IMG/VR virus record: IMGVR_UViG_3300037452_000118
Coordinates: 1-64,000 of that record
From: a virus
Reading direction: 5' to 3' (one strand)
DNA length: 64,000 bases
Numbering within the stretch: the stretch's first letter is position 1; every line of letters begins with the position of its first letter. The notes below the pieces were generated by a model. It was given only the letters and a program-made list of their open reading frames with translations. It did no database searches and was not told the DNA's origin. A program made the position numbers and the translations under genes. Positions 4,145 to 55,777 of this stretch are shown piece after piece.

Positions 4145-6611
4145 CGGCGACGTCGAGCCGTACGAGCGCGGCAACATCGTCGTCTTCCCGTTCCTGGACC
4201 GTGGCGCGGTAGTCAACGAGAAGTACCGCGCGCCGTCGAAGAAGTTTTGGCAACGCGGCGGCGGCAAGCGGACGTTCTGGAACGCTGACGCGCTGGACGA
4301 TCCTGCGCTGGAGGATGGGCGCCTCGCGCTGGTGATAACCGAGGGCGAGATCGACGCCCTTTCGGCGATCGAGTGCGGCTTCCCGCTGGCCGTGTCGGTG
4401 CCGGACGGCGCCCCAGGCGTCCCGGAAGGCGAGGACCCGGAGAACCTCGCGCCGCTCGACCCGAAGGCGGAGGACACCGGCAAGTTCGAGTTCCTCTGGA
4501 ACAACCGCGAGCGTCTGGCGCGCGTCAAAAGGTTTGTGCTCGCCGTGGACAGCGACGCTCCAGGGAGGCGGCTGGGCGCCGAGTTGGTGCGCCGGTTGTC
4601 GGCGGCCCGGTGCTCGTTCGTGACTTACCCTGAAGGCTGCAAGGACCTCAACGACGTCCTGACGAAGCGCGGCGCGGAAGAGGTCGCCGGGGTGATCAAC
4701 GCGGCCAGGCCTTACCCGGTGCGCGGGCTCTATCGGCTGTCGGAGTTTCCGCAGCATGGGGCGCTGCAGACGTTCAGTACCGGCTGGTGGACGCTCGACA
4801 AGCACCTCCGCCTCTTCGCCGGCGAGTTCATGGTCGTTACCGGAATCCCGGGACACGGGAAGTCCAGTTGGGTGCTCAACCTGCTGTCCAACGCGGCCGA
4901 ACTTCATGGCTGGCGCTCCGCGATCTTCTCACCGGAGATGCCGACGGTGCCGCAGCTCAGGGACAAGCTGAGGCGCATCAAGGCCCGTCGGCCCGTCGAC
5001 GAGTTGGACCGCAACATGATCGCCGACGCGGACGAGTGGATCGAACGCAACTTCGTCTTCATCGACGCGGACCCGACCGGGAAAGACGATGAAGAGTACG
5101 ACCTCGACTGGGTGCTGGACAGGGCGACCGATGCCGTACTGCGCGACGGCGTCCGTATCTTGGTCATCGATCCGTGGAACGAGGTCGAGCACGCGAAGCG
5201 TAGGGACGAATCCATGACGGAGTACATCGGCCGGGCGATCAGGGCGATGAAAAGATTCGGGCGCCTCTATGACGTGACGGTCATCGTCGTGGCGCACCCG
5301 ACCAAGGACATCGCCAAGGAAGGCAAGAGCCGGCCGCCGACGCTTTACGACATCGAGAGTTGTTATTCCGATGATACCGAAGTGTTGACGAAGCGCGGTT
5401 GGTTGCATCACGGCCAAATTACCGCCGCTGATGACATAGCGTGCTTCGACTTGGCAGACGGTAGCGTTGTTTATGCCCAACCGAGCGCGATTCATCGCCA
5501 CGAAAGATGCGGTGAGATGATTTCGCTGCGCGGCTACGGCTACGACTTGCTCGTGACGCCATCTCACCAAATGGTAGTCAAGCCGAAATGGACCGAGCCA
5601 GTCGGCGGCGATGGCACGTACGGTCGTCCGCGCCTTTGGAGAAAATCGAGCTGGCAGAAATGCCAAGCTGCGAAGTTGCCAAGCGCGCCTTTTTCGCTGC
5701 CGCTTGCCGGCATTCCGATTCCGGGGGCGCATCCCGTCGAGATCGCCATCGGGAACAAATCCTATCCGATGAAAGCGTTCTGTCGATTGATTGGATGGTA
5801 CATTTCCGAAGGTTGCGCGGGCCAAACCGGCTTAACTTGGTCGCAGACGGAGAATGCGCTCGCCGGTGATTTCACTGCGACGTTTGCTGAGTGCGGCATC
5901 CCGGCATCGGTCAATTGGCAGGAGCCTTCGCCCACGCGCGGTTACGGCGGAACATTGCGCAGCGGGCGCTGGTATATCGGCAATCGGTTCAGCCGAGAAC
6001 TCGTCGCTTGGTTCCGGGAAAACTGCGGCGAAAAGAGCCACGAAAAAAGGCTTCCAGAATCCGTCTTCGATCTGTCCCCGGAACTAAAGCGCATCGTACT
6101 TATGGCCTACATTGAAGGCGACGGTTGCGCTGCTCGCGCTGGCTGGAGGGCAACGACCGTTTCCAAACGGCTTGCAGACGATCTTCAACGCTTGGCGGTC
6201 GAGATAGGCATCGCGACGAGCTGTCTAGTCCGCGATGTCGATGGATTTCGCAGGCAATATAATTTGAGGTTTGGGCATTCCGGCCGCGTCGAAACGGCAG
6301 TACGAGTCTCACGTAACGTAGAGCGATGTTCCTATGATGGTTTGGTCTGGTGCCTTACTGTTCCGACCGGGGCGTATTTTGTGCGCCGTAATGGGCGCGT
6401 TGCCGTAGCTGGAAACTCGGCACACTGGTTCAACAAATGCGACCACGGCATCGTCGTCGATTGGCCGGATTCCAACATCGCGGAGAGCGTGATCCGCGTC
6501 GCCAAGGTCCGCTTCGAGGAAAGCGGCGAGCGCGGCCAGGTTCGGATGAAGTTCGACAGGTTCTCGGGGCGCTACGATTTGTTGTTGGACATACAGGAGG
6601 GAACGCCGTGA
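4035..6611 (+). CDS. TOPRIM primase/DnaB-type helicase with intein
   Basis: The 858-residue precursor has a TOPRIM domain (VITEGEIDAL near residue 103; LAVDSD near 172) and a RecA-like helicase core. Walker A is GIPGHGKSS (residues 270-278), Walker B is ILVIDPWNE near 379, and VVAHPTKD follows near 420. Residues 443-794 are an intein. Excision would leave about 506 residues with DIES joined to SAHWFNKCDH, a conserved helicase motif. The product should unwind the replication fork and, with the separate zinc ribbon, prime lagging-strand synthesis. ATG 4035 has GGAGG at ideal spacing; an in-frame ATG at 4011 lacks this. The stop overlaps the next GTG. Confidence 0.9.
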   Translation: MTGKVLGALGVTAFENRGISPETAGKYGIYTARRSDSGDVEPYERGNIVVFPFLDRGAVVNEKYRAPSKKFWQRGGGKRTFWNADALDDPALEDGRLALVITEGEIDALSAIECGFPLAVSVPDGAPGVPEGEDPENLAPLDPKAEDTGKFEFLWNNRERLARVKRFVLAVDSDAPGRRLGAELVRRLSAARCSFVTYPEGCKDLNDVLTKRGAEEVAGVINAARPYPVRGLYRLSEFPQHGALQTFSTGWWTLDKHLRLFAGEFMVVTGIPGHGKSSWVLNLLSNAAELHGWRSAIFSPEMPTVPQLRDKLRRIKARRPVDELDRNMIADADEWIERNFVFIDADPTGKDDEEYDLDWVLDRATDAVLRDGVRILVIDPWNEVEHAKRRDESMTEYIGRAIRAMKRFGRLYDVTVIVVAHPTKDIAKEGKSRPPTLYDIESCYSDDTEVLTKRGWLHHGQITAADDIACFDLADGSVVYAQPSAIHRHERCGEMISLRGYGYDLLVTPSHQMVVKPKWTEPVGGDGTYGRPRLWRKSSWQKCQAAKLPSAPFSLPLAGIPIPGAHPVEIAIGNKSYPMKAFCRLIGWYISEGCAGQTGLTWSQTENALAGDFTATFAECGIPASVNWQEPSPTRGYGGTLRSGRWYIGNRFSRELVAWFRENCGEKSHEKRLPESVFDLSPELKRIVLMAYIEGDGCAARAGWRATTVSKRLADDLQRLAVEIGIATSCLVRDVDGFRRQYNLRFGHSGRVETAVRVSRNVERCSYDGLVWCLTVPTGAYFVRRNGRVAVAGNSAHWFNKCDHGIVVDWPDSNIAESVIRVAKVRFEESGERGQVRMKFDRFSGRYDLLLDIQEGTP
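5361..6416 (+). mobile_element. Intein with LAGLIDADG homing endonuclease in the helicase
   Basis: A 352-residue in-frame insertion beginning with Cys1 (CYSDDTEVLTKRGW, block A) and ending AVAGN before Ser+1. A block B histidine sits in LVTPSHQMV. Two LAGLIDADG-type helices are LIGWYISEG (about residue 584 of the precursor) and LMAYIEGDG (about 687), so homing activity may be intact. Block F is VWCLTVPTGAYFV. The usual penultimate His is Gly, as in some phage inteins. The insertion splits the motif between DIES and SAHW in the helicase core. The DNA is less GC-rich than the flanking exteins, which supports later acquisition. Confidence 0.92.
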
Positions 6612-32135: not shown

Positions 32136-33052
32136 GATTCCGCTTCACCCTCGTGGTCTGGGGCGATTGGCACATCGGCCAGTTCGTCAGGCACGGCCTG
32201 CCCAGCCTGCGGGCGCCGGGCAACCTCGACGCGATCGACCACGTCGTTTCCGCGAAGACACGGCCGTCGGACCTGGAGCGCGTGCGCGCGGCGCTGGACG
32301 GCGTCAACGCCGAGATCGAAGCGCTGCTTCCCGACGACATCGGCTCCGACCAGGCGACCTGCAACACGGCGGTCTTCACGCACAACGTCGACGACCGATC
32401 CGCCGCCGCCCAGGCCGGGGAGGCCTGGGGACTGCTGTCGCCCGACATGGTGTGGGGCGAGGGAACGTGGGCGCACCACCGCGCCGCGCTGGAGGGCGGC
32501 GCGAAGGCGGTCTTCCGCCCGCTGCTGCGCGTCGACTCCGAACGCGCCGGGACGATCCGCGATTTCCGCAGACGCAGCCTCGCCGCGACCGCCTTGGAGC
32601 ACGAGCACGCGATCGCGCGGACGGACTACCGCGCCGGCGGGGAGAGGTTCTCGCCGCACGCCGAGATGATTATCTGGGAGGCGCCGGGTTGGCTGATCAA
32701 CCGGACCATCACCGCTGAAGTCCAGACCTGCATCCCGGCTGCGGTGCCGTTCAACTCGCAGGGTTTGTCGGCGCTGCCGCTGGACGGCGAGATGTGCGTG
32801 GTCCGCGACAGCGACGAGGCGATCGCGGTGGCGATGTGCCCGCCGGACAAGGACTTCGGCTGGCTGCAGGGGACGCGACCGCTCGATGTCGACCTTGTCC
32901 GCGGTTTCCTGCGGTCCTACAACTCGCCGGCATCGAGGAACATCGCGCGCCAATCCTACCACCTGCATGCGGGCGACATCGTCGATGCCGAGATATGGAA
33001 AACGGTATTAGATCGTAGATCAGACGATTTCATCACGGAGGTCTTCGCGTGA
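32132..33052 (+). CDS. WGD-family protein 2, glycosyltransferase-like
   Basis: 306 residues. It begins MRFRFTLVVWGDWHIGQFV, then GLPSLRAPGNLDAIDHVV, aligned with the starts of the proteins at 30668 and 37724. The middle has GLLSPDMVWGEGTWAHH near 110, and the C-terminal part includes RTDYRAGGERFSPHAEMII. Acidic and histidine residues cluster in these segments. Function is unknown; the repeated presence of three such proteins in the glycan region suggests a transferase or sugar-modifying role. ATG 32132 overlaps the previous stop, and the end overlaps the SPASM gene by GTGA. Confidence 0.6.
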   Translation: MRFRFTLVVWGDWHIGQFVRHGLPSLRAPGNLDAIDHVVSAKTRPSDLERVRAALDGVNAEIEALLPDDIGSDQATCNTAVFTHNVDDRSAAAQAGEAWGLLSPDMVWGEGTWAHHRAALEGGAKAVFRPLLRVDSERAGTIRDFRRRSLAATALEHEHAIARTDYRAGGERFSPHAEMIIWEAPGWLINRTITAEVQTCIPAAVPFNSQGLSALPLDGEMCVVRDSDEAIAVAMCPPDKDFGWLQGTRPLDVDLVRGFLRSYNSPASRNIARQSYHLHAGDIVDAEIWKTVLDRRSDDFITEVFA

Positions 33053-34167
33053 ACCTGCACCTCGCGTCAGACCTGCTCCTGGACAAGCATCTTCCGGAGC
33101 CGGAGCCTGTCCCCGACAAGGCGGCCTACCTCCGCGAGCGCGAGGCCTGCCTGGCGCTGTCGCCGGCGGCGCGCGAGAACTGGGAGCGCTACGAGCGCTC
33201 GACGAGGCGCGAGGCGGAGCTGGACTACCTGCCGGTCCGGCTCGACGTCGAGAACGTCAGCCGCTGCAATTTTCGTTGCACCATGTGCCAGGTCAGCGAC
33301 TGGCCGAAGGGCCAGCGCGCCGCCGACATGAGCCTCGACGACTTCAAGCGGCTGCTCGACGAGCAGGTCGGAGTCGTAGAGCTGAAAATCCAGGGCTTCG
33401 GCGAGCCGACGATGGGCGCCCACTATTTTGAAATGATCCAATACGCGAGGGCGCGGCGGATATGGGTGCGCACCATCACCAACGCCTCGCGGCTGCATTT
33501 GAGAAACACGTTTCAAAAGTTGGTCGATACCGACGTGAACGAAATCCAAATATCAATAGACGGCGCAACGAAGGAAGTCTTCGAGGGCATCCGGCGCGGC
33601 TCGGTGTTCGAGCAGGTCGTGAAGAATTGCGCGCTGATCAATGGCTATGCAAAAGCCCAGGGCAAGCTACGAACCAAAATGTGGACTGTCGTGCAACAAA
33701 CCAACGCGCACCAGCTCGACGACCTGGTCGACCTCGCCTACGACGCCGGCTTTGCGCATTTGGTTTTTTCATTTGAATTGATTGATTTTGGGCAGCCGAA
33801 ATGGAAGGAGACGAACGATGCCGCCTCGGTCGCGGATCGGATAAGCCTCGCGGAATGTTGGCGGCTGCACCATCGCGCCAAGGCGCTCGGCGTCCGATTG
33901 GGTTTTTGGTTTGCCAACGAACGCTATAGCTATGAGGCGGGCAACCCGGAAAAGCTATGCTCGTGGCCGTTTCAGTCTGCCTACATCTCGTCCGACATGA
34001 AAATCGTACCGTGCTGTATAATTGGAAACCCCGAAGTTAGCAATTTCGGCGATGCCCGCAAGCTCACTGAACTTTGGAATGGCCCCGCCATCAAGGCTTT
34101 CCGTGAGGGTCATTTGACGGGGTGTGTTCCGGATATTTGCAGGTCCTGTTATAAGGGGAATCGCTGA
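33049..34167 (+). CDS. Radical SAM/SPASM-domain enzyme
   Basis: 372 residues. The radical SAM motif is CNFRCTMC (Cys73, 77, 80), with IQGFGEPTMG near 117, ITNASRL and IQISIDGATKEVFEGIRRG. The C-terminal SPASM region carries cysteines in LCSWPF, VPCCIIGNP and CRSCY, for auxiliary iron-sulfur clusters. Such enzymes modify peptides, sugars or alcohols. In glycan clusters SPASM proteins can act as dehydrogenases or dehydratases. DNA shifts from GC-rich to noticeably AT-richer after about 33400, suggesting a recombination junction inside the gene. GTG start overlaps the previous stop. Confidence 0.85.
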   Translation: MNLHLASDLLLDKHLPEPEPVPDKAAYLREREACLALSPAARENWERYERSTRREAELDYLPVRLDVENVSRCNFRCTMCQVSDWPKGQRAADMSLDDFKRLLDEQVGVVELKIQGFGEPTMGAHYFEMIQYARARRIWVRTITNASRLHLRNTFQKLVDTDVNEIQISIDGATKEVFEGIRRGSVFEQVVKNCALINGYAKAQGKLRTKMWTVVQQTNAHQLDDLVDLAYDAGFAHLVFSFELIDFGQPKWKETNDAASVADRISLAECWRLHHRAKALGVRLGFWFANERYSYEAGNPEKLCSWPFQSAYISSDMKIVPCCIIGNPEVSNFGDARKLTELWNGPAIKAFREGHLTGCVPDICRSCYKGNR

Positions 34168-34215: not shown

Positions 34216-34368
34216 ATGAGAACCACGCACAAGCAGACGATTACCTTCACGAAACCAGAGATCGACTACCTGCGGATCGAGGCTAAACGCCTCGGCATAT
34301 CCGTGGCCGATCTTGTGCGGCGGATCATAGATCAGCACCAAGAGAGCCAAAGGAAAGCAGCAAAATGA
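34216..34368 (+). CDS. Small ribbon-helix-helix protein
   Basis: 50 residues, MRTTHKQTITFTKPEIDYLR then EAKRLGISVADLVRRIIDQ. The short basic strand followed by two helices joined at LGIS is the Arc/MetJ ribbon-helix-helix pattern, so it should bind DNA as a dimer. It lies just upstream of the gene bordering the pentamer tract and overlaps it by ATGA. An AT-rich stretch (TTGACTTATAATTAT) about 25 bases upstream may be a promoter, though the boxes lack normal spacing. It may regulate this locus. Confidence 0.65.
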   Translation: MRTTHKQTITFTKPEIDYLRIEAKRLGISVADLVRRIIDQHQESQRKAAK

Positions 34369-35177
34369 ACAAACCAATCCAAGCCGAAGAGGCCGTTACC
34401 GTTGCCGAGATACAGATGACCGAGATGAGCTTCAACATCGTCGGGACATCCCCTCTCGTGATCCATGCTATGAGCGCGAAGAGCAAAGGCTCTCTGCTCT
34501 TTCCATCTCCGCGCAAGAATGCGACGGAGCGAGCGACGACGATGAAGCACGAACCATATGAGGAGTTTCTCGGCGCTTGCTATCGCTTCAGGGACGCCGA
34601 CAAATCGCCGACCCGGCTCTATATGCCGGCCGGAGCTTTTCATGCCGCGATGGCCAACTCCGCGATTGATATGGTCGGCGCTAAGAAAGCGCAGATCGGG
34701 CGCTTGACTACGGTACCCGGCGGCAAGATTCCAATCTTCGGTGTGCCGCAACTCTGGATGACCACCGTCAGGTCGAGCGACATGGCGCGAACACCGGACA
34801 TTCGCACGCTGCCGATCCTGCCGTCATGGTGCGCCACGATCACGGTGCAGTTCGTCGGTAGCCTGATCAAGCAGCAGTCGATCGCCAATCTGCTCGCTGC
34901 CGCTGGCGTCATCATTGGTATCGGTGACGGGCGCCCAGAGAAGGGCAAATTGTCGATGGGCCAGTTTCGCCTTTGCTCCGACGATGATCTAGAGTTTTTG
35001 CGGATCGTGAAGCAAGGCGTAACCGCGCAGGATAAGGCGCTTGCCGACCCGGCGACTTTCGACGAGGAAACTGCAGAACTTTGGGATTGGTTCACAAAAG
35101 AAAAAACCAAACGGGCGGCGGCTCCGGCGTCAATACCGAAGCGCCCCCCCCAAGGCAGAGCATGCAGCGCGAGCTAA
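34365..35177 (+). CDS. Conserved phage protein bordering the repeat tract
   Basis: 270 residues. Landmarks: MSFNIVGTSPLVIHAMSAKS, YEEFLGACYRF, RLYMPAGAFHAAMANSA, then IANLLAAAGVIIGIGDGRPEKGK and GQFRL. I recall related phage proteins with the same ending pattern (GIGxxRPEK), without known function. The Gly-rich loop and the PxxAFxxA segment would suit a nucleic-acid-binding beta fold, reminiscent of but not identified as a Cas7-like fold. It lies directly upstream of the pentameric repeat tract, making it a candidate reader of those repeats. Confidence 0.6.
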   Translation: MNKPIQAEEAVTVAEIQMTEMSFNIVGTSPLVIHAMSAKSKGSLLFPSPRKNATERATTMKHEPYEEFLGACYRFRDADKSPTRLYMPAGAFHAAMANSAIDMVGAKKAQIGRLTTVPGGKIPIFGVPQLWMTTVRSSDMARTPDIRTLPILPSWCATITVQFVGSLIKQQSIANLLAAAGVIIGIGDGRPEKGKLSMGQFRLCSDDDLEFLRIVKQGVTAQDKALADPATFDEETAELWDWFTKEKTKRAAAPASIPKRPPQGRACSAS

Positions 35178-35212: not shown

Positions 35213-36060
35213 GCCCAGTCATATCTCGATGTGACGAGATACGACTAGATGCGACCGGGACCAACAAGACTTGATCGGTCAAGATGCGAACAGTCTTGAT
35301 GCGACGGGACCGGATATGATCCGATGAGCCGTGACTGGACCAACGCGACTAGACCGGACGCGACGCGATACGATCTGGCTAGATACGATGAGACCAATGC
35401 GATGCGTTTGGCCGAGTTCGGACGCGACATGATCCGCCGTGATGCGCTTTGCCAAGACGCGACCAACATGATGAGCCGTGACCAGCCACGATCAGACCCG
35501 ACGGGCCGGAGCGCGACTTGCTCAGACCAACAAGACCTGCCGAGCCGCGATCGGCCGCGCTGCGATACGATTGGACAGGACGTGTTTTGTCCAACATGAC
35601 CCGACTAGCGATGACGAGCGGTGCCGGGCCATGACGAGACCAACAAGCCAAGTCTGGACGTGCTCGGACGGAATATGATCGGACTGGACAAGACCAACAC
35701 GACAAGACTGGAGACGACGTGCGGAGCCGGGACCGGCCGCGACAACGCTGGACCTGACCAACGGGCCTAGAAGGGACCGGATTAGCAATGCCGTGGCGAG
35801 ACGGGACCGACAAGTCACGATCAGCCAAGTCCCGAGGAGCCAACGCGAGATCGGACATGCCAAGACCAACGAGGTTTGCTCAGATGAGCGAAGCCGCGAC
35901 GTGATCGGCCAAGACGTGACCAACGTGACTGGCTATGCCGAGATTGGCCCGGACCAGATGCCTTGGGACGAGACTTGAAATGCCGAGACCAACGAGCCGC
36001 GATGTGACCTGACGCGCTATGCCGCGATCAGTAGCGATGAGATGGGATAAGTTGCCAACC
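35213..36060. repeat. Phased pentamer tract with GACCAACNN unit headers
   Basis: About 850 bases built of pentamers of the form G[A/C/T][C/T]NN, most often GACNN or GATNN. Thirteen headers of nine bases, GACCAACNN or a one-base variant, start at 35259, 35338, 35392, 35461, 35525, 35589, 35638, 35692, 35756, 35805, 35864, 35918 and 35987. Spacings are 79, 54, 69, 64, 64, 49, 54, 64, 49, 59, 54 and 69, all equal to 9 plus a multiple of 5. Between headers the G recurs every five bases with almost no indels, although the NN positions vary freely. The five-base period rules out ordinary coding. It lies between two conserved phage genes. Function unknown. Confidence 0.92.
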
Positions 36061-36076: not shown

Positions 36077-36571
36077 ATGTCGACCATGAAAATCCGCGCT
36101 GCGGCGATCAAAGCGATCGAGGATGAAGCCGGCAGAGTGACGGCGGAAGCGCTGGTATTGGCGGCGCGCGATCAAACCCATCCGCTGCACAAGGAGTTTC
36201 CCTGGGACGACAAAAAGGCGGCGCACCAGCATCGCCTCGATGTCGCCCGCCGTATAATCGCCAGCGTAAGGGTAACCATCACAACTACAACCAAGAAGGT
36301 AACCTGCGTTGGCTATGTCAGGGATCCTGAAGCCGGGCTACGACAGGGCTACGTCAGCACCGTCAAGCTGCGTACTGAGGCCGATGCTGCGCGGGAAGCC
36401 CTCGGCGCGGAGATCGCCAGGGTACAGAGCATTTTGGAAAGAGCGAAGGAACTCGCTGCAGGCCTCGAGCTTGACGAGGATTTTCAATTGTCTCTCGCCG
36501 GCGCCTTGGATTTTTCCAGCCGGATGCGAAAAGGACTCGGTTTTCCAGGAGATGGAAGAGCCTTGCAATAA
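36077..36571 (+). CDS. Conserved phage protein after the repeat tract
   Basis: 164 residues, with an excellent ribosome site (AGAGGAGG). Landmarks: TAEALVLAARDQTHPLHKEF, PWDDKKAAHQHRLDVARRII, then a helical second half (REALGAEIARVQSILERAKEL). I recall phage proteins with the same ArDxxHPLHxxFxWDD signature, unnamed and of unknown role. It sits between the main tract and the second tract block, which suggests a functional link to them. Confidence 0.65.
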   Translation: MSTMKIRAAAIKAIEDEAGRVTAEALVLAARDQTHPLHKEFPWDDKKAAHQHRLDVARRIIASVRVTITTTTKKVTCVGYVRDPEAGLRQGYVSTVKLRTEADAAREALGAEIARVQSILERAKELAAGLELDEDFQLSLAGALDFSSRMRKGLGFPGDGRALQ

Positions 36572-36587
36572 AGCCTAAACGTACTGT

Positions 36588-36707
36588 GCCGTGTCACGTT
36601 ACGACATGATCGGACACGATCTGACGAGACCAACGCGACCTGACTCGTCTTGTTGCGGTGAGGCATGACATGATGCGATTTGTCGCGATCCGACTAGCCG
36701 CAGCAAG
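36588..36707. repeat. Second block of the phased pentamer repeat
   Basis: About 120 bases with the same structure as the main tract. Eight in-phase pentamers from 36588 (GCCGT, GTCAC, GTTAC, GACAT and so on) are followed by one header, GACCAACGC, at 36628. About 13 pentamers then run on to the next gene. The gene at 36077 separates the two blocks. Confidence 0.85.
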
Positions 36708-36725
36708 ATGATCAAAGGGAAGCTA

Positions 36726-37727
36726 ATGATACTCTCTGTCGGGGAATACGATGCCCTTGAGCAGGAAGCTCGCTGCGGTCTTTCTTTTTGCGAGCTCATG
36801 GCCTTCGCGCCGCGCACTTTCGACATGCTCGGCTTCCCGCATCGCGTCGAGGATGAGCGGGAGCTCGTCCGCTACGCCGATTGGAATCGGGACACCGGAA
36901 ATCAAGAATACTTTCGGCCCGGCCATTTCTTCGGCGGCCCGGCCGTGCAGACCGACTTCACCGCCGATGAGGTCGAGATGATGAATCGCGTCCGCGACCA
37001 GGCCGTCGCGGCGACCACCAAGCTCGGCCGGCCGGTGCGGCCGCTGTGCAGTCCCTTCGCGCAGCTCGGCCTGTTTCGCATCTTGGCCGCCATCGGATTG
37101 CCTGGGCTCCGCGTCTTCGAGGTCGGCCCCGGTACCGCCTATCTCGGCGCCATGCTCATCAACGAAGGCGCGAGCTATTATTCTTTCACCGACAACGCCC
37201 AGGCGCTTTTCCTTTGGCAATGTCGCTTGATGGCCGAGGTCGGGTATCAACCGACGTCGCGCGCTGGGCTTCCGTGGTGGGACTTCGCCCGCGGCGTCAA
37301 CCTTCTTCCGGTCGATGTCGTGGTCTCCAACACCAACCTCGGCGAGATGACCGGCGACGCGCTCAAGATCACGGCGCACCGCGCGCGGCAGATGCTGGAG
37401 AGATCGCCGCTTGGTCTCTTCCTGTTCGTCAACGTCGGGGCGCCGATGTACAATTCGGAGGAGGGCGTCGACCGCGAGCTGCGCCGTGCCGGCTTCAGCC
37501 TCGTCGTCAACCGCTTTTTCCGCGCCTACCGGGCGCCCAACTCCGAGCCGCTCCCGGAGGCGGCGCTGGCCTTGGAGTTCGGCATGCCGCTCTATAATCC
37601 AAGCGGCAGGCCTGGCACGGTGTCCGGTGGCGAGGCCGTGTACATCCCCGACGACCAGCGCCCGCTCGACCTCGACGTTACGGAGCTGCTGGAGGGGTGG
37701 CGCCCGCCGGTGAGGAGCAAGCCATGA
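36726..37727 (+). CDS. Putative SAM-dependent methyltransferase
   Basis: 333 residues. LRVFEVGPGTAYLGAMLINEG near residue 132 matches the SAM-binding motif I (E/DVGxGxG) of class I methyltransferases. It is followed by an acidic-loop-like YYSFTDNAQALFLW and then VDVVVSNTNLGEMTGDALK, similar to motif IV. This arrangement resembles putative sugar O-methyltransferases. The N-terminal 120 residues include HFFGGPAVQTDF. ATG 36726 has GGGAAG before it; ATG 36708 is an alternative adding six residues. It overlaps the next gene by ATGA. Confidence 0.65.
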   Translation: MILSVGEYDALEQEARCGLSFCELMAFAPRTFDMLGFPHRVEDERELVRYADWNRDTGNQEYFRPGHFFGGPAVQTDFTADEVEMMNRVRDQAVAATTKLGRPVRPLCSPFAQLGLFRILAAIGLPGLRVFEVGPGTAYLGAMLINEGASYYSFTDNAQALFLWQCRLMAEVGYQPTSRAGLPWWDFARGVNLLPVDVVVSNTNLGEMTGDALKITAHRARQMLERSPLGLFLFVNVGAPMYNSEEGVDRELRRAGFSLVVNRFFRAYRAPNSEPLPEAALALEFGMPLYNPSGRPGTVSGGEAVYIPDDQRPLDLDVTELLEGWRPPVRSKP

Positions 37728-48077: not shown

Positions 48078-48557
48078 ATGGCTGACCAACGGCGCGAGCG
48101 CGACAAGTCCGGCGCCGCCGCGGCGTTCGGCGTCGCGATCCTCCTCCTGCTGGCGGTCATGCTGGCTTGGTGCGGGCATCGCGTCCCGGCGGCGCTCCCG
48201 CCGGCCGCAGAGCCGCCGATCGTTGCGCCGACCCCTCCGGTTGTTGCGCCGGAACCCCCTCCCGTTGCATCGGAGCCGCCGGCCGTCGCGCAACCGGGCG
48301 AAGCGCCCCAGATGGCGCCGCAGGAAGAGCCGAAACCACCGGAACCGGCCGTTCCAGCTATGCCCCTGCCGCCAGATAGGGCCGTGGCGCCGCCGACCCC
48401 GCCAGACGCGGCGCCGCCGGCGCGGGCCACGCCAGCGGGCCCGGCGCCCGGTCGCGCCCCCGCCCCCCGCAGGCACCGGGCGCCCCGTCCCCGCGGCGAC
48501 CGCGGCTGCAGCCAAGCCTACCTGTCGATCTCCTGCCCGCAGAAGGAACGCCAATGA
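48078..48557 (+). CDS. Membrane-anchored Pro-rich protein
   Basis: 159 residues. One membrane segment (AAAFGVAILLLLAVMLAWCG, about 13-32) is followed by about 100 residues of Pro/Ala/Glu-rich, TonB-like sequence and a short C-terminal CSQAYLSISCPQK. The layout suggests an anchor in the inner membrane with an extended periplasmic spacer, as in TonB-like or spanin-like proteins. No lysis partner is seen nearby. It overlaps the portal polyprotein start by ATGA. Confidence 0.5.
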   Translation: MADQRRERDKSGAAAAFGVAILLLLAVMLAWCGHRVPAALPPAAEPPIVAPTPPVVAPEPPPVASEPPAVAQPGEAPQMAPQEEPKPPEPAVPAMPLPPDRAVAPPTPPDAAPPARATPAGPAPGRAPAPRRHRAPRPRGDRGCSQAYLSISCPQKERQ

Positions 48558-51500
48558 CCAAGAAAGCCGGCCACGGCGGCCCGAGGCCCGGCGCCGGCCG
48601 CAAGCCGCTGACCCCCGAGGAGCAGGAGGCCAAGCGGGTTCGGCGGAACGAGGCCGCCCGGAAACGCCGCGCCGACGCCAAGGCGAAGGCCGCCGGCGCG
48701 GCCGTAGCCGAGGCCCCCGCCACCGTCCCCGCCGCGCCGAAGGGCCAGCAGGCGGGCGCCTGGGGCGACGCGCGGGCCATCGAGGCGCTGATGGAGCGGA
48801 TGGGCCAGCGGAGGAAGCGGAGCCGGGCGCCGGAGTTCAACCCGTTCCAGGTCGCCAAGCACCCGCCGCGGGCCACCCCGCCGAAGAAGCTCCAGATGGC
48901 GATGGACGACGGCACGATGGGCTGGGCGGCGAGCGCCTGGCTGGGCGGGTTCGGCGGCGTCTTCGGGGCGGTGGGCGCGGAGGGGCTGCAGTTCCTCGGC
49001 TACCCCTACCTGTCGGAGCTGGCGCAGCGGACGGAGTACCGCGTCATCTCGGAGACCATCGCCGACGACGCCACGCGGAAGTGGATCGACTTCGACGTCA
49101 CCGGCACCATCAAGGACAAGGAGAAGGGCCAGGACGACGAGGAGACCGAGGAGAAGGAGGAGGCCGGCGAGCCGGTCGACCCCGACGAGGAGAAGCAGAA
49201 GCGCGAGGACCGCGTGAAGTCCTCGGGCAAGATGGAGAAGGTGAAGCAGCTCAAGGACGAGCTGGCGCGGCTCGAGCTGCGGGACTGCATGTACCGGATC
49301 TGCCGCGACGACGGCTTCTTCGGGCGATCGCACCTCTACCTCGACTTCGGCGACGACCTCGACAAGACCGAGGCGATGAACGAGCTGAAGACGCCGATCG
49401 GCGACGGCCGCGACAAGCTCAGCCAGGGCAAGGTGGGACCGCAGAAGCCGCTGGCGGCGGTGCGCCCGGTCGAGCCGGTGTGGTGCTACCCGACGACCTA
49501 CAACGCCATCAACCCGCTGCGCGACGACTGGTACAACCCGCAGGTCTGGTACGTGATGGGCCGCGAGATCCACCGCAGCCGCCTGCCGACCTTCGTCGGC
49601 CACCCGGTCCCCGACCTCCTGAAGCCTGCGTACTCGTTCGGCGGCCTGTCGCTGTCGCAGATAGCGAAACCCTACGTCGACATCTGGCTGCAGACCCGGG
49701 ACAGCGTTGGGGAGCTGATCCACGCCTTCTCGACGATGGTGCTGCTGACCGACGTGCAGACCAACCTGGCGCCGGGGGCGACCGGCGGTCCGGGCACGCT
49801 GATGGCGCGCGTCGCCGCGTTCAACGACTTCCGCGACAACATGAACACCTTCGTGCTGAACAAAAATACGGAGGATTTCAAAAATGTGTCGGTCCCGCTC
49901 GGCGGCCTGCACGAGCTCCAGGCGCAGTCGCAGGAGCATGTTGCCTCGGCTGTACGCATCCCGCTCATCAAGTTCACGGGGCTGCAGCCTGCGGGACTCA
50001 ATGCGTCCGCCGAGGGTGAGGTGCGAGCATATTACGACACGATCGCGGCCTACCAGAACCGCTTCCTACGGCCCAACCTGACCCGCGTCCTCAACTTCGT
50101 GCAGCTCTCGCTATGGGGCGAGATTGACCCAGAAATTGTCTTCGACTTCGAGGGCCTCTGGGAGATGAGCGAGAAGGAGAAGGCCGACCTCCAGAAGGCC
50201 GAGGCGGAGCGCAACCAGACCTACGTCGACATGGGCGTCATCGCGCCGGAGGAGGTCCGCGGCGTGGTCATCGACGACCCCGAGCTGCCGTTCGGCGACC
50301 TCGACCCCGACGACGTGCCGGAGCTCAAGGAGGAGGAAGAGGGCGGCCTCATCCCGCCCGGCGGCGGGCGCGCCGAGGAGGCCATCATCGGCGAGCCGGG
50401 CGCGGAGCCCGGCGGTCCGGGCCGGCCGGCGGGCGCCCCGGCGCCGAAGCCCGGCGGCGGCCACGGCGACCCGGCGTTCCAGGAAGACGGGGGAGGCGCG
50501 GCGGCGGGGGCGCGCAACGTGGTCCCTTTCAGGGCGCGCGGCGCCGCTGACGAGCTGGACCCGCTCTTCGCCAGCCTCGCCAACGACGCCGCGATCGAGT
50601 GGAACGAGAGCAAGCACCCCCGCGACCCCAAGGGCGAGTTCACGGCTGGCGCGTCGGCTGGCGCGGCGTCCCATGCCGCGGAGACCGGCGCCGGCGCCCC
50701 GAAGGCCAAGGGCTACGGCTGGCACGGCGGCCCCCAGCAGCACTTCGTCATGCCGCAGTTCGGGCTGTGGGGGCCGCCGGGCAGTTTCGGCGGCGGGCAC
50801 TGGAGGCCGGAGCCGCGGCCGCCGCTCGACCCCTCGACGCTCAAGAAGGTCGGCCCGCAGATGGGGTCGAACCCCGGCGGCGTGTTCGAGGACGAGAAGG
50901 GGCGCAAGTTCTACGTCAAGGAGGGCCGGTCCAAGGACCACGTCCGCAACGAGCTCACCGCGGCCGACCTCTACGACCTCGCCGGCGCCCCGACGCTGCG
51001 CTACCGCGACGTCGCCGGCGGCGCGCACATAGCGTCGGAGATGGAGAAGCTCAGCAAGAAGAACGCGTCGGAGCTGTCGGCGGAGGAGGTGCGCAAGGCC
51101 AAGCGCGACTTCGCCGCGCACGCCTGGACGGCGAACTACGACGCGGTGGGCACCGGCGGCGACAACCTTGTCGCGGCGGGCCCGGACGTCTTCACGGTCG
51201 ACCTCGGCGGCGCGCTTGAATACCGGGCGCGCGGCAAGCCCAAGGGCGACGCGTTCGGGAACCAAGTCACAGAGATGGACACCATGCGCGATCCGAGCAT
51301 CGCGCCGGACGCCTCCGCGATCTTCGGCGACATCACCCCCGCCGAGTTCAGGGAATCGGCCGCCCGCGTGACGCGGATCAGCGACGGCGCCATCCGCGCC
51401 GCGGTCAAAGCGCGCGGCGGGTCGGACGCCTTGGCCGACAAGATGATCGCGCGGCGCGACGACATAGCGAAGCGGGCCAAGACTTTCGGCGCCGAGGGCG

Positions 51501-54500
51501 ATCCGAAGAAGAAGACCTCGACCGTGATCTTCCCCGCCGGCGACGCGCTACCGGTGAAGACGCTCAACGGGGTGGCGTTCGAGCCGTGGACGCCGCCGGC
51601 CGACGGCGACTGGAACGAGGTCGACGGCCAGATGGACATCGAGGACGAGGCGCCGCTGCCGGAGGGCGCGCAGGGCAAGCAGCTGGCCTCGGGACTGATC
51701 ATCAGGGAGAAGGACGGCCGCGTCTGGCTCGCCCGGCCGAAGGGTGGCTTCGGCGGATACGACAGCACATTTCCAAAGGGCCGGGTCGAGCACGCGCTGT
51801 CGATGCAGGCCAACGCGATCAAGGAGGCCTTCGAGGAGACCGGGCTCAAGGGGCGGATCACCGGCATGGCCGGCGACCGCGTCGGCGACGTCACGCTGAC
51901 CCGGTACTATCTCGCGGAGCGCGAGGGCGGCGATCCCAGCCGGCCCGGAGAGGAGAGCGAGGGCGTGGTGCTGGCGCCGGCGGACAAGCTCGACGGCTTC
52001 CTCAACCGCGACCGCGACCGCAAGCTGGCCAAGGAGATCGCCCAGGACGAGGAGCCCGGCGCGCCGCGGACGCTCTACGTCAACCGCCCGCTGCTCAACG
52101 CCGGCGACCTGGCGGCGTGGGCGCGGGAGCACGGCGTCAAGAAGCTGCTGCCGGCCGACGACATGCACGTTACCGTGGCGTTCAGCAAGGCGCCGCTGGC
52201 GTGGGCCGCTGCTGGGGACGGCGCGGCGAAGGTCGTCGCCGAGGGTGGCGAGCGGTCGGTCGAGCGCCTCGGCAACGAGGGCGCCGTAGTGCTGCGCTTC
52301 GAGTGCCCCGCGCTGGACCGGGACTGGCGGCGGTTCGTCGACGCCGGCGCCTCGTGGGACCATCCAGGCTACAAGCCGCACGTCACCTTCACGATGGGCG
52401 ACGTCGACGTCGACGCGGTCGAGCCCTACGACGGGCCGCTGGAGTTCGGGCCGGAAGAGTGGGACGAGATCGGCAACCGGCCGGCCGACTGGGCCGCCAA
52501 GGCGAAGGCCTCGCTGGTCGCCGCGGACGCCTTCGAGGAGGGCAAGCACCCCCGCGGGCAGCCGGAGAACAAGGGCCAGTTCGGCCCCGGAGGCGGCGGG
52601 GGCGGCCAGGCGAAGCGGACCTCGGCCGGCAGGCCGACGCCCCGGCGCGGGAGCGGGGCGGTGCTGCAAAGCCGGAGCCAGGGCGCCGCCCAGGCGGCGG
52701 CCGCGGCGCCGAAGCACGACTCCGCGAAGCTGCTGGAGAAGTCGGTCTCCGACGCGCTGGCGAAGGCCACGCCGAAGCAGAAAGAGCAGGCGGCCGACCA
52801 CGACCGCAAGACGAAAGCGTTCCTCGCCTCGGAGCCCGCCCGCAAGTCGATGGCGGCGTCGGTCAAGGCGTTCGCCGCCAAGCACGCCGCGGCGATGGCG
52901 AACTACCACCTCACCGACGCGATCATGCTGCCCGGGGTGCACCACGTCGTCGAGCAGGCGGTCTCTGCGATCGGGCTGGGCGCGGTGCCCGGCCTCACGC
53001 TGGGCGCCACCGCGGTCGCGGCGTACGCGGCGAACCGGCTGATCGAGACCTACCACCTCAACCTCACCGGGGCGAAGCAGCTGCTGGCGCCGGTGGTGCG
53101 CGGGATGGTCGACGTGCTCGGCAACGTCAAGGAGACCTCGGCGCGGATCGCCGACCTGGAGCGGCGCGGGCTCGTCGGGGCGGAGGACGCGAAACGCGAC
53201 GATACCGTGCTCGACGCGCTGATCGTACTGCTGCTGGAGGTCGAGAAGCTCGGCGAGGAGGAGCCGCAGGCCGAGGACGAGGCGCCGTTTGAGGAGTCGA
53301 AGCATCCCCGCGACGCGCACGGCGAGTTCACCAGCAAAGGCGGCGAGGGCGGGGGCGGGCAGTACATCGGCACTGGCGGCGAGGAGGATCCCGCGGAGCA
53401 GATCGCCGCGGCCAACGAGCCGCCGGCCGGCGAGGGCACGAAGCCGGTATCTACCAACGACATCGTGAAGAAGGCGAACGCGAACGCCGAGGCCGCCGGC
53501 CAGGGCGGCCTCGACGACGTGGACCCGCTGACGAGCGCGAAGCACAAGTACAACGCCGCGATCCAGCTCGGCGCCAACTACGCTACGGCGACGTGGGCGA
53601 CGACGCACGAGGAGGACGCGGCGCTCAAGCAGGTCTACAGCTCGACCGAAGACGCATGGAAAGCGCTCGCCGAGGCTGAGAAAAATAAGGCCGGCGACCC
53701 GCAACAATCGTTCAAGGCCGAGATCGCGAAGATCGACAACGCTGAGGGCGAGTACGCCGACCTCGATACCAACCTGAAATCTGCCGAAGCGAAGGTAAAG
53801 GCCGGCATGGCGCACGAGATGGCGCCGGATGATGTTGTCGATGCTCTCTCCGAGGTCGAATACAACGCGATCCAGAAGAAGTACGGCAACATTACCGGCG
53901 CCTACGCAGAGATGAAGAAGGCCGATGAGGAAAAACCTCAAGGAGCGCTGGAGTGGGCCAAAAAACTGCTTGAGACCGGGCTTGTCGGGCCAGAGGCGGA
54001 GAAGATTCTCGCCCACCTTGATACGATCGGATACGGCGACACCGACAAACTCAATGCTTTGATCGCGCAGGCTGCCGGGAAAGAAGCGCCCACTCCACAA
54101 GCCAAGGAGGGCAAAACCAAGTTCGGCGGCCTGTGGAAGGTGACCGGCCTCGGCGAGAAGGCGGACATCCAGCTCAACGCCAAGACGGTGCTCCTCAAAC
54201 CGACCAACGCCGGACAGAGCTACCGGCAGATGATGACGTTCCTGATCAACAACGCCGCGGCCGGCGACCTCGACGCCGACATCGTCGGCAAATTGAAAGT
54301 TAAACTGGTCGAGGCGCTCTACAAGGCCAGCGACAAGGCGACTCAGCTCGGCAAGGAGGGCGACGCCAAGAAGATCAACCTCGCGCTGAACAAGATCAGC
54401 ATGAAGGAGCCGGCCATCCTCGCCGCCGGGATGGGGGCGTGGGAGGCCAGCAAGAACGGCCAGCCGCCGCCGGCCTACAAGCCCCCGCAGCCCGAGCCCG

Positions 54501-55777
54501 ATCCGGCGCCGCAATCCAAGCCGACCGTGAACGACAAGGCGATGGCCTCCTTCAAGAAAGCTGCCGCCGCGATGTGGAAGAAGGCCGGTTACGGCCCCGA
54601 CAGCAAGGGCGATTCGGTCACCGCGTCCGAGAAGGCCAAGCTGGCCGCGCAGCACGGCATCTCGACGCAAGACCTCATCGACAATCTCACCTTGGCGGAG
54701 AACAAGTCGCTGAAGGATTTTTACGGCTCGATCGCCAACGCGATGAATTGGGCCGCGAACAAGGTCGAACCCGACGCCAACGAGGCGAAGGAGGTCGCCA
54801 CGATCGCGCCGGCGACGTCCGCGTCGGAGCCACCGTCATCGTTGAAGGCGACCTATGCCGAGATCACCAAGGCGAAGAAGACCGCTCCGCTCCAACTGCA
54901 GTACGTGCCGAACGCGCCGCAGACCGATGAAGCGCAGAAGCTCGTCGACGAGTTCAACGCGAAGTGGTCCGGCAAGGAGGTCGACGACGACATCGCGCTG
55001 AAGAAGATCGCCGACTTCAAGGCGATGCAGCAGAAGATGGTGCCGCTGATGAACGCGGCGCAGAAGGCGGCGGCGGAGCAGAACGCCAAGATCGCCGCGG
55101 AGGCGAAAAAATCGCAGGCGGAGCAAGTCGCGAAGTCGGCGAAGGAGACCGCGAAGCACGCGGCGCAGCTCGAGGAGTACAAGAAGGAACTCGGCGTCGG
55201 CGACGCGGAGGCCGAGGCCTTCGAGGGCCTGGTCGACATGCTCGGCGGCGACAAGCAGAAGGTGCTGGCCAGTTTCAAGAGCTACGCTACCTCCGCAGGC
55301 CACGGCCTGACCGGCTTCGAGGGCAAGCTGATCGCGGGCTACAAGTCGGACAGCAGCGTCGTCAACGCGGAGATGCGGAAGCCTATGGCGTCGTGGAAGT
55401 CGCCGAAGTTCATGTACGCCAAGATATTGAACAAGGCGCTGTCGAAGCTGCCCGGCTACAGCGGCGTCACGATCAGGAACACGCCGCTGAGCAGCGAGCT
55501 GCAGATGCGCTACCAGCCCGGCAACGTCGTCATGGAGCACGGCTTCACCGGGACCTCGAAGCAGAAGCCGAACGGGGTGTTCAGCGGCAACACGAGGTTC
55601 TACATCAAGGGGATCGGCAAGCGGGCGGCCGACATCTCGGAGATGTACGGCTTCCAGGGCGAGGGCGAGGTGCTCTACCAAGCGCACACCGCCTTCCACG
55701 TCGACAAGGTCGAGGGCCAGGTAGGCAGCGACGGCGAGGCGAGCTACAAGGTCTACATGACCGAGCTGGAGGTTTGA
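48554..55777 (+). CDS. Portal polyprotein with kinase-like, NUDIX-like, Acb1-like and ADP-ribosyltransferase domains
   Basis: 2407 residues in one frame. About 1-640 is a DUF1073-type portal: MAMDDGTMGWAASAW, EYRVISETIADDATRKW, SVPLGGLHELQAQSQEH and GLQPAGLNASAEGE. ESKHPRDPKGEF (685-696) opens a second module. A PI/HipA-kinase-like region (about 790-990) has GRKFYVKEGR, AANYDAVGTGGDN-like and VFTVDLGG segments. A NUDIX-like domain (about 1040-1170) has a degenerate box (GRVEHAL ... KEAFEETGL). A 2H phosphoesterase (about 1180-1300) has MHVT (1204-1207) and PHVT (1275-1278), as in Acb1-like domains of portals. Further KHPR linkers follow (H1332, H1584), then Ala/Lys-rich helices. An ADP-ribosyltransferase closes the chain, with R2308, FTGTS (S2335) and E2370-G-E2372. 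Confidence 0.85.
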   Translation: MTKKAGHGGPRPGAGRKPLTPEEQEAKRVRRNEAARKRRADAKAKAAGAAVAEAPATVPAAPKGQQAGAWGDARAIEALMERMGQRRKRSRAPEFNPFQVAKHPPRATPPKKLQMAMDDGTMGWAASAWLGGFGGVFGAVGAEGLQFLGYPYLSELAQRTEYRVISETIADDATRKWIDFDVTGTIKDKEKGQDDEETEEKEEAGEPVDPDEEKQKREDRVKSSGKMEKVKQLKDELARLELRDCMYRICRDDGFFGRSHLYLDFGDDLDKTEAMNELKTPIGDGRDKLSQGKVGPQKPLAAVRPVEPVWCYPTTYNAINPLRDDWYNPQVWYVMGREIHRSRLPTFVGHPVPDLLKPAYSFGGLSLSQIAKPYVDIWLQTRDSVGELIHAFSTMVLLTDVQTNLAPGATGGPGTLMARVAAFNDFRDNMNTFVLNKNTEDFKNVSVPLGGLHELQAQSQEHVASAVRIPLIKFTGLQPAGLNASAEGEVRAYYDTIAAYQNRFLRPNLTRVLNFVQLSLWGEIDPEIVFDFEGLWEMSEKEKADLQKAEAERNQTYVDMGVIAPEEVRGVVIDDPELPFGDLDPDDVPELKEEEEGGLIPPGGGRAEEAIIGEPGAEPGGPGRPAGAPAPKPGGGHGDPAFQEDGGGAAAGARNVVPFRARGAADELDPLFASLANDAAIEWNESKHPRDPKGEFTAGASAGAASHAAETGAGAPKAKGYGWHGGPQQHFVMPQFGLWGPPGSFGGGHWRPEPRPPLDPSTLKKVGPQMGSNPGGVFEDEKGRKFYVKEGRSKDHVRNELTAADLYDLAGAPTLRYRDVAGGAHIASEMEKLSKKNASELSAEEVRKAKRDFAAHAWTANYDAVGTGGDNLVAAGPDVFTVDLGGALEYRARGKPKGDAFGNQVTEMDTMRDPSIAPDASAIFGDITPAEFRESAARVTRISDGAIRAAVKARGGSDALADKMIARRDDIAKRAKTFGAEGDPKKKTSTVIFPAGDALPVKTLNGVAFEPWTPPADGDWNEVDGQMDIEDEAPLPEGAQGKQLASGLIIREKDGRVWLARPKGGFGGYDSTFPKGRVEHALSMQANAIKEAFEETGLKGRITGMAGDRVGDVTLTRYYLAEREGGDPSRPGEESEGVVLAPADKLDGFLNRDRDRKLAKEIAQDEEPGAPRTLYVNRPLLNAGDLAAWAREHGVKKLLPADDMHVTVAFSKAPLAWAAAGDGAAKVVAEGGERSVERLGNEGAVVLRFECPALDRDWRRFVDAGASWDHPGYKPHVTFTMGDVDVDAVEPYDGPLEFGPEEWDEIGNRPADWAAKAKASLVAADAFEEGKHPRGQPENKGQFGPGGGGGGQAKRTSAGRPTPRRGSGAVLQSRSQGAAQAAAAAPKHDSAKLLEKSVSDALAKATPKQKEQAADHDRKTKAFLASEPARKSMAASVKAFAAKHAAAMANYHLTDAIMLPGVHHVVEQAVSAIGLGAVPGLTLGATAVAAYAANRLIETYHLNLTGAKQLLAPVVRGMVDVLGNVKETSARIADLERRGLVGAEDAKRDDTVLDALIVLLLEVEKLGEEEPQAEDEAPFEESKHPRDAHGEFTSKGGEGGGGQYIGTGGEEDPAEQIAAANEPPAGEGTKPVSTNDIVKKANANAEAAGQGGLDDVDPLTSAKHKYNAAIQLGANYATATWATTHEEDAALKQVYSSTEDAWKALAEAEKNKAGDPQQSFKAEIAKIDNAEGEYADLDTNLKSAEAKVKAGMAHEMAPDDVVDALSEVEYNAIQKKYGNITGAYAEMKKADEEKPQGALEWAKKLLETGLVGPEAEKILAHLDTIGYGDTDKLNALIAQAAGKEAPTPQAKEGKTKFGGLWKVTGLGEKADIQLNAKTVLLKPTNAGQSYRQMMTFLINNAAAGDLDADIVGKLKVKLVEALYKASDKATQLGKEGDAKKINLALNKISMKEPAILAAGMGAWEASKNGQPPPAYKPPQPEPDPAPQSKPTVNDKAMASFKKAAAAMWKKAGYGPDSKGDSVTASEKAKLAAQHGISTQDLIDNLTLAENKSLKDFYGSIANAMNWAANKVEPDANEAKEVATIAPATSASEPPSSLKATYAEITKAKKTAPLQLQYVPNAPQTDEAQKLVDEFNAKWSGKEVDDDIALKKIADFKAMQQKMVPLMNAAQKAAAEQNAKIAAEAKKSQAEQVAKSAKETAKHAAQLEEYKKELGVGDAEAEAFEGLVDMLGGDKQKVLASFKSYATSAGHGLTGFEGKLIAGYKSDSSVVNAEMRKPMASWKSPKFMYAKILNKALSKLPGYSGVTIRNTPLSSELQMRYQPGNVVMEHGFTGTSKQKPNGVFSGNTRFYIKGIGKRAADISEMYGFQGEGEVLYQAHTAFHVDKVEGQVGSDGEASYKVYMTELEV

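Follow-up and report, generated by a model that had tools for sequence, protein, structure and literature searches.

The window analyzed here, a 64,000-nt stretch of DNA, is part of a virus record of 128,813 bases. The record carries genes for a terminase large subunit, a portal protein, a tail sheath, and a tape measure protein and therefore represents a contractile-tailed phage; a primase/helicase gene is also present. The locus of interest begins with a radical-SAM/SPASM gene (33049-34167), followed in order by a gene for a 270-aa protein (34365-35177), a long phased tract that we call array 1 (35213-36060), a gene for a 164-aa protein (36077-36571), and a short second tract, array 2 (36588-36705), all four of the latter on the plus strand. 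For the last gene in the series (36708-37727), viral contigs and named phages yielded no homologues. This cassette is surrounded by several cargo genes of radical-SAM-like and methyltransferase-like type, as well as by a SET-domain-like gene (29664), as if the region from 18181 to 42930 were a cargo island. Elsewhere in the window, one 2,408-aa open frame (48554-55777) joins a portal protein (residues 108 to 596) to weak nudix and clear RNA-ligase-like segments (about residues 1062 to 1281), an unusual fusion.

Array 1 is built of G[A/C][C/T]NN pentamers in 14 blocks, with 13 headers (GACCAACNN) between the blocks. The initial annotation had described a strict 5-base phase and had proposed autocorrelation against shuffled controls as a check, and the expected peak is present: the lag-5 autocorrelation of 35213-36060 was 0.412, compared with 0.266 ± 0.016 in 500 dinucleotide-preserving shuffles (maximum, 0.323; z = 9.0). 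Lags 10, 15, and 20 were raised too, lags 4 and 6 fell below chance, and the tract ranked first for the lag-5 statistic among the 848-base stretches of the window. The pentamer had been given as G[A/C/T][C/T]NN; the G and the C/T held, but the second base is A or C, the fitted frequencies being 94% G, then 58% A or 29% C, then 54% C or 33% T, and then two N positions. Tandem Repeats Finder was silent on the tract because the conserved positions are too few.

The headers lie at 35259, 35338, 35392, 35461, 35525, 35589, 35638, 35692, 35756, 35805, 35864, 35918, and 35987. Our parser reproduced exactly the number of headers and the 12 header-to-header distances reported initially (79, 54, 69, 64, 64, 49, 54, 64, 49, 59, 54, and 69), all of which equal 9 + 5k. 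Exact GACCAAC was found in 10 of the 13, with the variants GACCAAT at 35392, GTCCAAC at 35589, and GACCGAC at 35805, and a purine stands directly after the header in 14 of 14 cases, such that the header acts as GACCAACR. The near-absence of indels was also confirmed, there being none from 35259 to about 36047 (~790 bases); a single extra G disrupts the phase at 35258, just upstream of the first header. Blocks 1 to 13 contain 9 to 15 NN pairs each, and the block preceding the first header is shorter (6 in a strict parse). The tract first described is thus real, but it is not the only one, as array 2 had been overlooked; it has one header (36628) and two blocks, g14 (8 NN) and g15 (14 NN).

Several familiar readings of the tract were set aside. 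The period of 5 and the shortness of the internal open frames rule out protein coding, and there are no identical repeats with unique contiguous spacers as in CRISPR, so the initial annotation was right on both counts; a simple tandem repeat was rejected as well, with no repeat reported by Tandem Repeats Finder. A structured RNA fared no better, since array 1 showed no RNA structure beyond that of shuffles (z = -0.42) and matched no Rfam family. A promoter and terminator scan was uninformative at the locus, where no sigma-70-like promoter was found, although the promoter rules of this phage may differ.

The 34365 product belongs to a function-unassigned family (phrog_4652; E = 4e-16), and neither it nor the 36077 product had a cas-type match in Pfam, NCBIfam, or PADLOC. 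With the single 34365 sequence, phmmer gave a weak match to PDB entry 36pp, "SUSP1 Vipr protein"; a profile of 11 homologues had 36pp as its sole match in the PDB (E = 1.1e-5), and hhalign aligned the family with the Vipr of phage Alf5 (E = 8.5e-9). In a Foldseek search with an AlphaFold2 model of the protein (pLDDT, 81.7; pTM, 0.75), the top matches were all RAMP/Cas7 proteins (Csm3 and others), which are type III CRISPR subunits (best E = 4e-5). The open frame is intact, with its conserved motifs kept, and has a C-terminal G-loop motif, GIGDGRPEKGK. We refer to this gene for a Cas7-like RAMP protein as vipr. The predicted fold supports the view that its product is the kind of protein that oligomerizes on RNA, and by analogy with SUSP1 Vipr we propose that it may polymerize on a guide RNA. 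The filament-forming protein with a 5-nt step foreseen by the initial annotation is consistent with this model, the step itself being suggested by the same analogy.

VIPR (Viral Interference Programmable Repeat) was described in an April 2026 preprint (PMC13142463; bioRxiv 2026.04.26.720920) as a RAMP protein, Vipr, acting with vrRNAs of 9 to 16 GGY/NN pentamers in non-contiguous RNA-guided DNA recognition. Double-stranded DNA is read as NNxNNx; the base passed over is in most cases the wobble position of a codon, and phages use the system against competing phages (PMC13142463). VIPR is a proposed ancestor-like relative of CRISPR effectors. In the preprint, the systems are mostly GGY, a "related consensus" is allowed, "staggered arrays" are mentioned, and seven types are distinguished.

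The 36077 product, which we call putative Vap (VIPR accessory protein; phrog_15946), has N-terminal helices with an FEWDxxKAAxxYRxxQAR motif and long helices after them. Its AlphaFold2 model reached a pTM of only 0.39 and had no fold match in the PDB, and hhalign found it unrelated to the protein at the vap position of the SUSP1-like phage Alf5. Six unrelated vap genes are named in the VIPR preprint (PMC13142463). A 36077 homologue adjoins vipr and an array in those relatives whose neighborhood was read through. Both 34365 and 36077 had been put forward as readers of the tract; this remains apt for the RAMP-like 34365 product, but 36077 is a conserved neighbor without sign of reading it.

A single-sequence search with 34365 retrieved no viral relatives. 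Searching with the array pattern yielded five other viral contigs, four of them near-identical, all with a vipr homologue at 57 to 62% identity, and an alignment search added four further viral loci with vipr homologues. Five loci came from bacterial genomes (Methylobacterium, Aureimonas, Pararhodobacter, a Nannocystis MAG, and a Binatia MAG), and Gordonia phages Ecliptus and Pipp also carry vipr and an array. A 5-nt phased tract lies beside vipr in 13 of 13 other distinct loci (vipr identity, 25 to 62%), the window not being counted and four near-identical contigs being among the pattern matches. Such tracts, whose presence beside 34365 homologues had been suggested as a check, were thus found in every relative examined, and several relatives have two or more separated arrays. 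In all loci, the header consists of a 4-nt unit and, after it, a normal pentamer, and the header spacing is 9 + 5k; the form is GACC-AACNN in the window and GGCT-GACNN, GGCA-GTCNN, GGCG-GTCNN, or GGCA-GGCNN elsewhere. In L009, one of the two closest relatives of the window, the first block abuts the vipr stop codon, no header standing between them, and the array terminates in GACCAAA; we therefore infer that the header closes each guide.

Individual relatives showed further features. In Gordonia phages Ecliptus (gene 19; L007 2938-3567) and Pipp (gene 42; L008 2998-3621), Vipr is annotated as hypothetical and GGY arrays lie directly downstream. Felixounavirus Alf5 (L086:1690-3517) has a SUSP1-like Vipr (gene 86) with GGY vrRNAs on both sides; the Alf5 Vipr segment is present in 129 phage records and is annotated as hypothetical among the matches listed. 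The other closest relative, L011 (568-3237), packs >20 guides with GYC triplets into a single array, which is followed by a small gene and another array. Adjacent guides in the Nannocystis MAG (L039:552-737) are near-identical, one ending in GT CT CA GC AA and the next reading AT CC AA GA GG GT CT CA GC AA, which suggests that guides spread via unit duplication. Two of the three L009 guides at 4794-5055 have their last four NN pairs (TT AC GA AA) in common, suggesting recombination between guides, and Methylobacterium guides 3 and 4 (L040:11567-11678) share GT..AC GC AA, which would fit the targeting of two alleles of the same gene.

The locus resembles VIPR in its RAMP protein with a G-loop, its two-gene phage cassette, its long intergenic RNA regions, its 5-nt repeats with hypervariable NN, and its guide length (9 to 16 NN in VIPR, 9 to 15 in the window's full blocks). 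A wobble-aligned 1-nt skip, with related phages as targets, is probably shared as well; it has statistical support, but no perfect target was found for the window guides. It differs from published VIPRs in its triplet, in the 4-nt phase break of its headers, and in its accessory gene, which is unrelated to that of Alf5. SUSP1-like systems have separate vrRNAs with an invariable structured 3' tail, whereas the window guides run head to tail with only a 7-nt separator; other VIPR types have other array architectures (PMC13142463). The window's subtype may already be among the preprint's seven types.

The published triplet is GGY, but the constant triplet is G[A/C]Y in the window, GAC in L009, and GYC in L011. 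GGY does occur in the wider family of the window's Vipr: GGY (or GGA) triplets are found in relatives at 35 to 47% identity and in the Gordonia phages. At 11 positions, the Vipr proteins of the window and its two closest relatives all have a residue that none of the eight remaining aligned sequences has; N34H, K93H, R149L, and W/F/Y189G are among these clade-specific residues. The three non-GGY loci form one clade and so count as one event; judging from the alignment, the residues are candidate determinants of the triplet. It is a plausible, if somewhat doubtful, proposal that the constant half of the VIPR code was rewritten here, GGY becoming G[A/C]Y or GYC, together with these Vipr changes (N34H, K93H, R149L, and aromatic 189 to Gly), giving a scaffold orthogonal to published VIPRs whose guides act against competitor alleles of the flanking cargo genes.

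The initial annotation had suggested that selection acts on register and not on sequence, a view that did not survive analysis of the NN pairs. In three arrays, the fit of these pairs to codon positions 1 and 2 exceeds that to genomic dinucleotides by 12, 8, and 22 log units (the reverse complement of codon positions 2 and 3 fits about equally well), and the composition of the first N differs from that of the second (P = 1e-4, 1e-4, and 2e-10). The NN pairs carry information, and guides decode to recognizable peptides. Decoding followed a 1-nt-skip rule (NNxNNx), with guides examined post hoc; under this rule the skipped base would be the wobble position of a codon, so that a guide decodes into a short peptide.

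Guide g1 (15 NN; 35259-35337, plus strand) decodes as [NK][FL]R[NK]A[HQ][FL]AGR[IM]P[DE]V[CW] and matches a radical-SAM/SPASM C terminus. Its self-like site (34096-34140, plus strand; codons AFREGHLTGCVPDIC) lies at the end of gene 33049-34167 and matches at 22 of 30 NN bases, with a score of 54 against a null of 38.2 ± 3.3 from shuffled guides (maximum of 400, 52). Guide g15, which decodes as ALS[FL]A[DE][IM][IM]A[FL]APYA, has such a site at 36777-36818 (plus strand; codons GLSFCELMAFAPRT) in gene 36708-37727, where 21 of 28 NN bases match (score, 45; null, 32.6 ± 2.6; P = 0.0025). Both matches are sense and in frame, in the two genes that flank the cassette. Because the own sites differ at 7 to 8 bases, we read them as self-avoidance; the true targets would then be the alleles of competitors. 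The phage's own copy of the g1 target has probably escaped. In another genome, a 52%-identical gene contains the homologous site, and it is there that g1 aligns best.

When 87 guides were compared with own-phage DNA, five matches exceeded z = 3 and all nine with P ≤ 0.05 were sense; in the cross-control, 1 of 261 exceeded z = 3 and 8 of 17 were sense. Methylobacterium guide 2 had 20 of its 22 bases matched, in the sense orientation and in frame, by the prophage tape-measure gene of another Methylobacterium genome, its single match among 111 genomes at ≤2 mismatches (~0.16 expected by calculation). Guide 1 of that array matched at 13 of 14 bases across the tail-tube start codon of the same prophage, a match that is weak alone (P = 0.045). 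Skip rules 0, 2, and 3 yielded nothing comparable in this prophage; in own-phage DNA, a skip-3 guide (L007_g3) reached z = 4.5, so single matches can mislead. There was no signal from 14 of the 16 window guides, and none had a perfect natural target among IMG/VR exact 8-NN seeds or 398 Hyphomicrobiales genomes. IMG/VR searches with exact 8-NN seeds of g1 (two seeds), g15, and Methylobacterium g2 gave chance-like matches only, g1 had no match at ≤3 mismatches in the 398 Hyphomicrobiales genomes, and all guides against the DNA of the collected loci gave no strong cross-target besides the Methylobacterium one. A guide in the sense orientation is unable to base-pair with mRNA, which points to DNA as the likely target, as the preprint showed for SUSP1 (PMC13142463).

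Taken together, the tract is very probably a guide-RNA array of a VIPR system in a tailed phage, with guides most likely directed against the alleles of competing related phages and repressing them through DNA binding. The array would be transcribed into RNA, and copies of the 34365 protein would hold its G-A/C-Y triplets one after another in 5-nt steps, leaving two N bases per step exposed to pair with one strand of the DNA target, which would be read NNxNNxNN with one base skipped at each step. GACCAAC, a phase-breaking 4-nt unit plus AAC, would close one guide and open the next, full guides having 9 to 15 NN pairs. The targets would most likely be competitors' alleles of genes that this phage also has, namely, the cassette-flanking genes here and tail genes in a relative. 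No nuclease was recognized in the cassette, which makes repression of the target genes through DNA binding a more likely outcome than cutting.

We also considered a VIPR array devoted to the phage's own regulation, with g1 and g15 tuning flanking genes 33049 and 36708 rather than acting on competitors. Both decodable guides do resemble cassette-flanking genes, but the own copies differ from these guides at 8 of 30 and 7 of 28 NN bases, most guides match nothing in their own genome, the Methylobacterium guide with 20 of 22 matches fits the tape-measure gene of another prophage, and the tail-tube guide mismatches its own start codon, and we regard this explanation as unlikely.

A near-perfect register maintained while NN varies could also be expected of a cis-acting DNA element (centromere-, packaging-, or origin-like) under a filament protein that senses the 5-nt register alone. 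That reading is highly improbable given that NN is codon-like, that the first and second N differ in composition, that guides resemble coding sequence in the sense orientation and in frame, that 34365 is RAMP-like and from a family of RNA binders, and that several relatives have more than one separated array. We give equally little credence to a decaying array that has lost expression or function: 3 of 13 headers have one substitution each, some triplets deviate, and a sigma-70-like promoter was not found, but no frame-breaking indel has arisen in ~790 bases whose NN have fully diverged, and the vipr frame and its motifs are intact.

Compared with other guide-based systems, the VIPR-like cassette shares with class 1 CRISPR-Cas (type III Csm/Cas7) a Cas7-like fold, a helical backbone on guide RNA, and periodic non-paired positions. 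It has neither the 20- to 40-nt repeats nor the contiguous spacers of those systems, in which five of six guide bases are read, as opposed to two of five here, and both cassette proteins lack a cas-type match. The TIGR-Tas effector is a Nop-domain protein, and the 34365 and 36077 products have no Nop-type Pfam match. Phage-borne tandem interspaced guide RNAs are what TIGR-Tas (PMC12045711) has in common with the locus.

The locus indicates that a changed scaffold triplet is compatible with an unaltered 5-nt register and two-base message, and it points to candidate Vipr residues that changed along with the triplet. Its guide bank is unusually large (about 15 in the window and >20 in L011), with a minimal 7-nt mark between guides. 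Because guides can be decoded into peptides, phage-versus-phage targets may be predictable from sequence, and a function is suggested for unannotated genes of named phages, such as Gordonia phages Ecliptus and Pipp.
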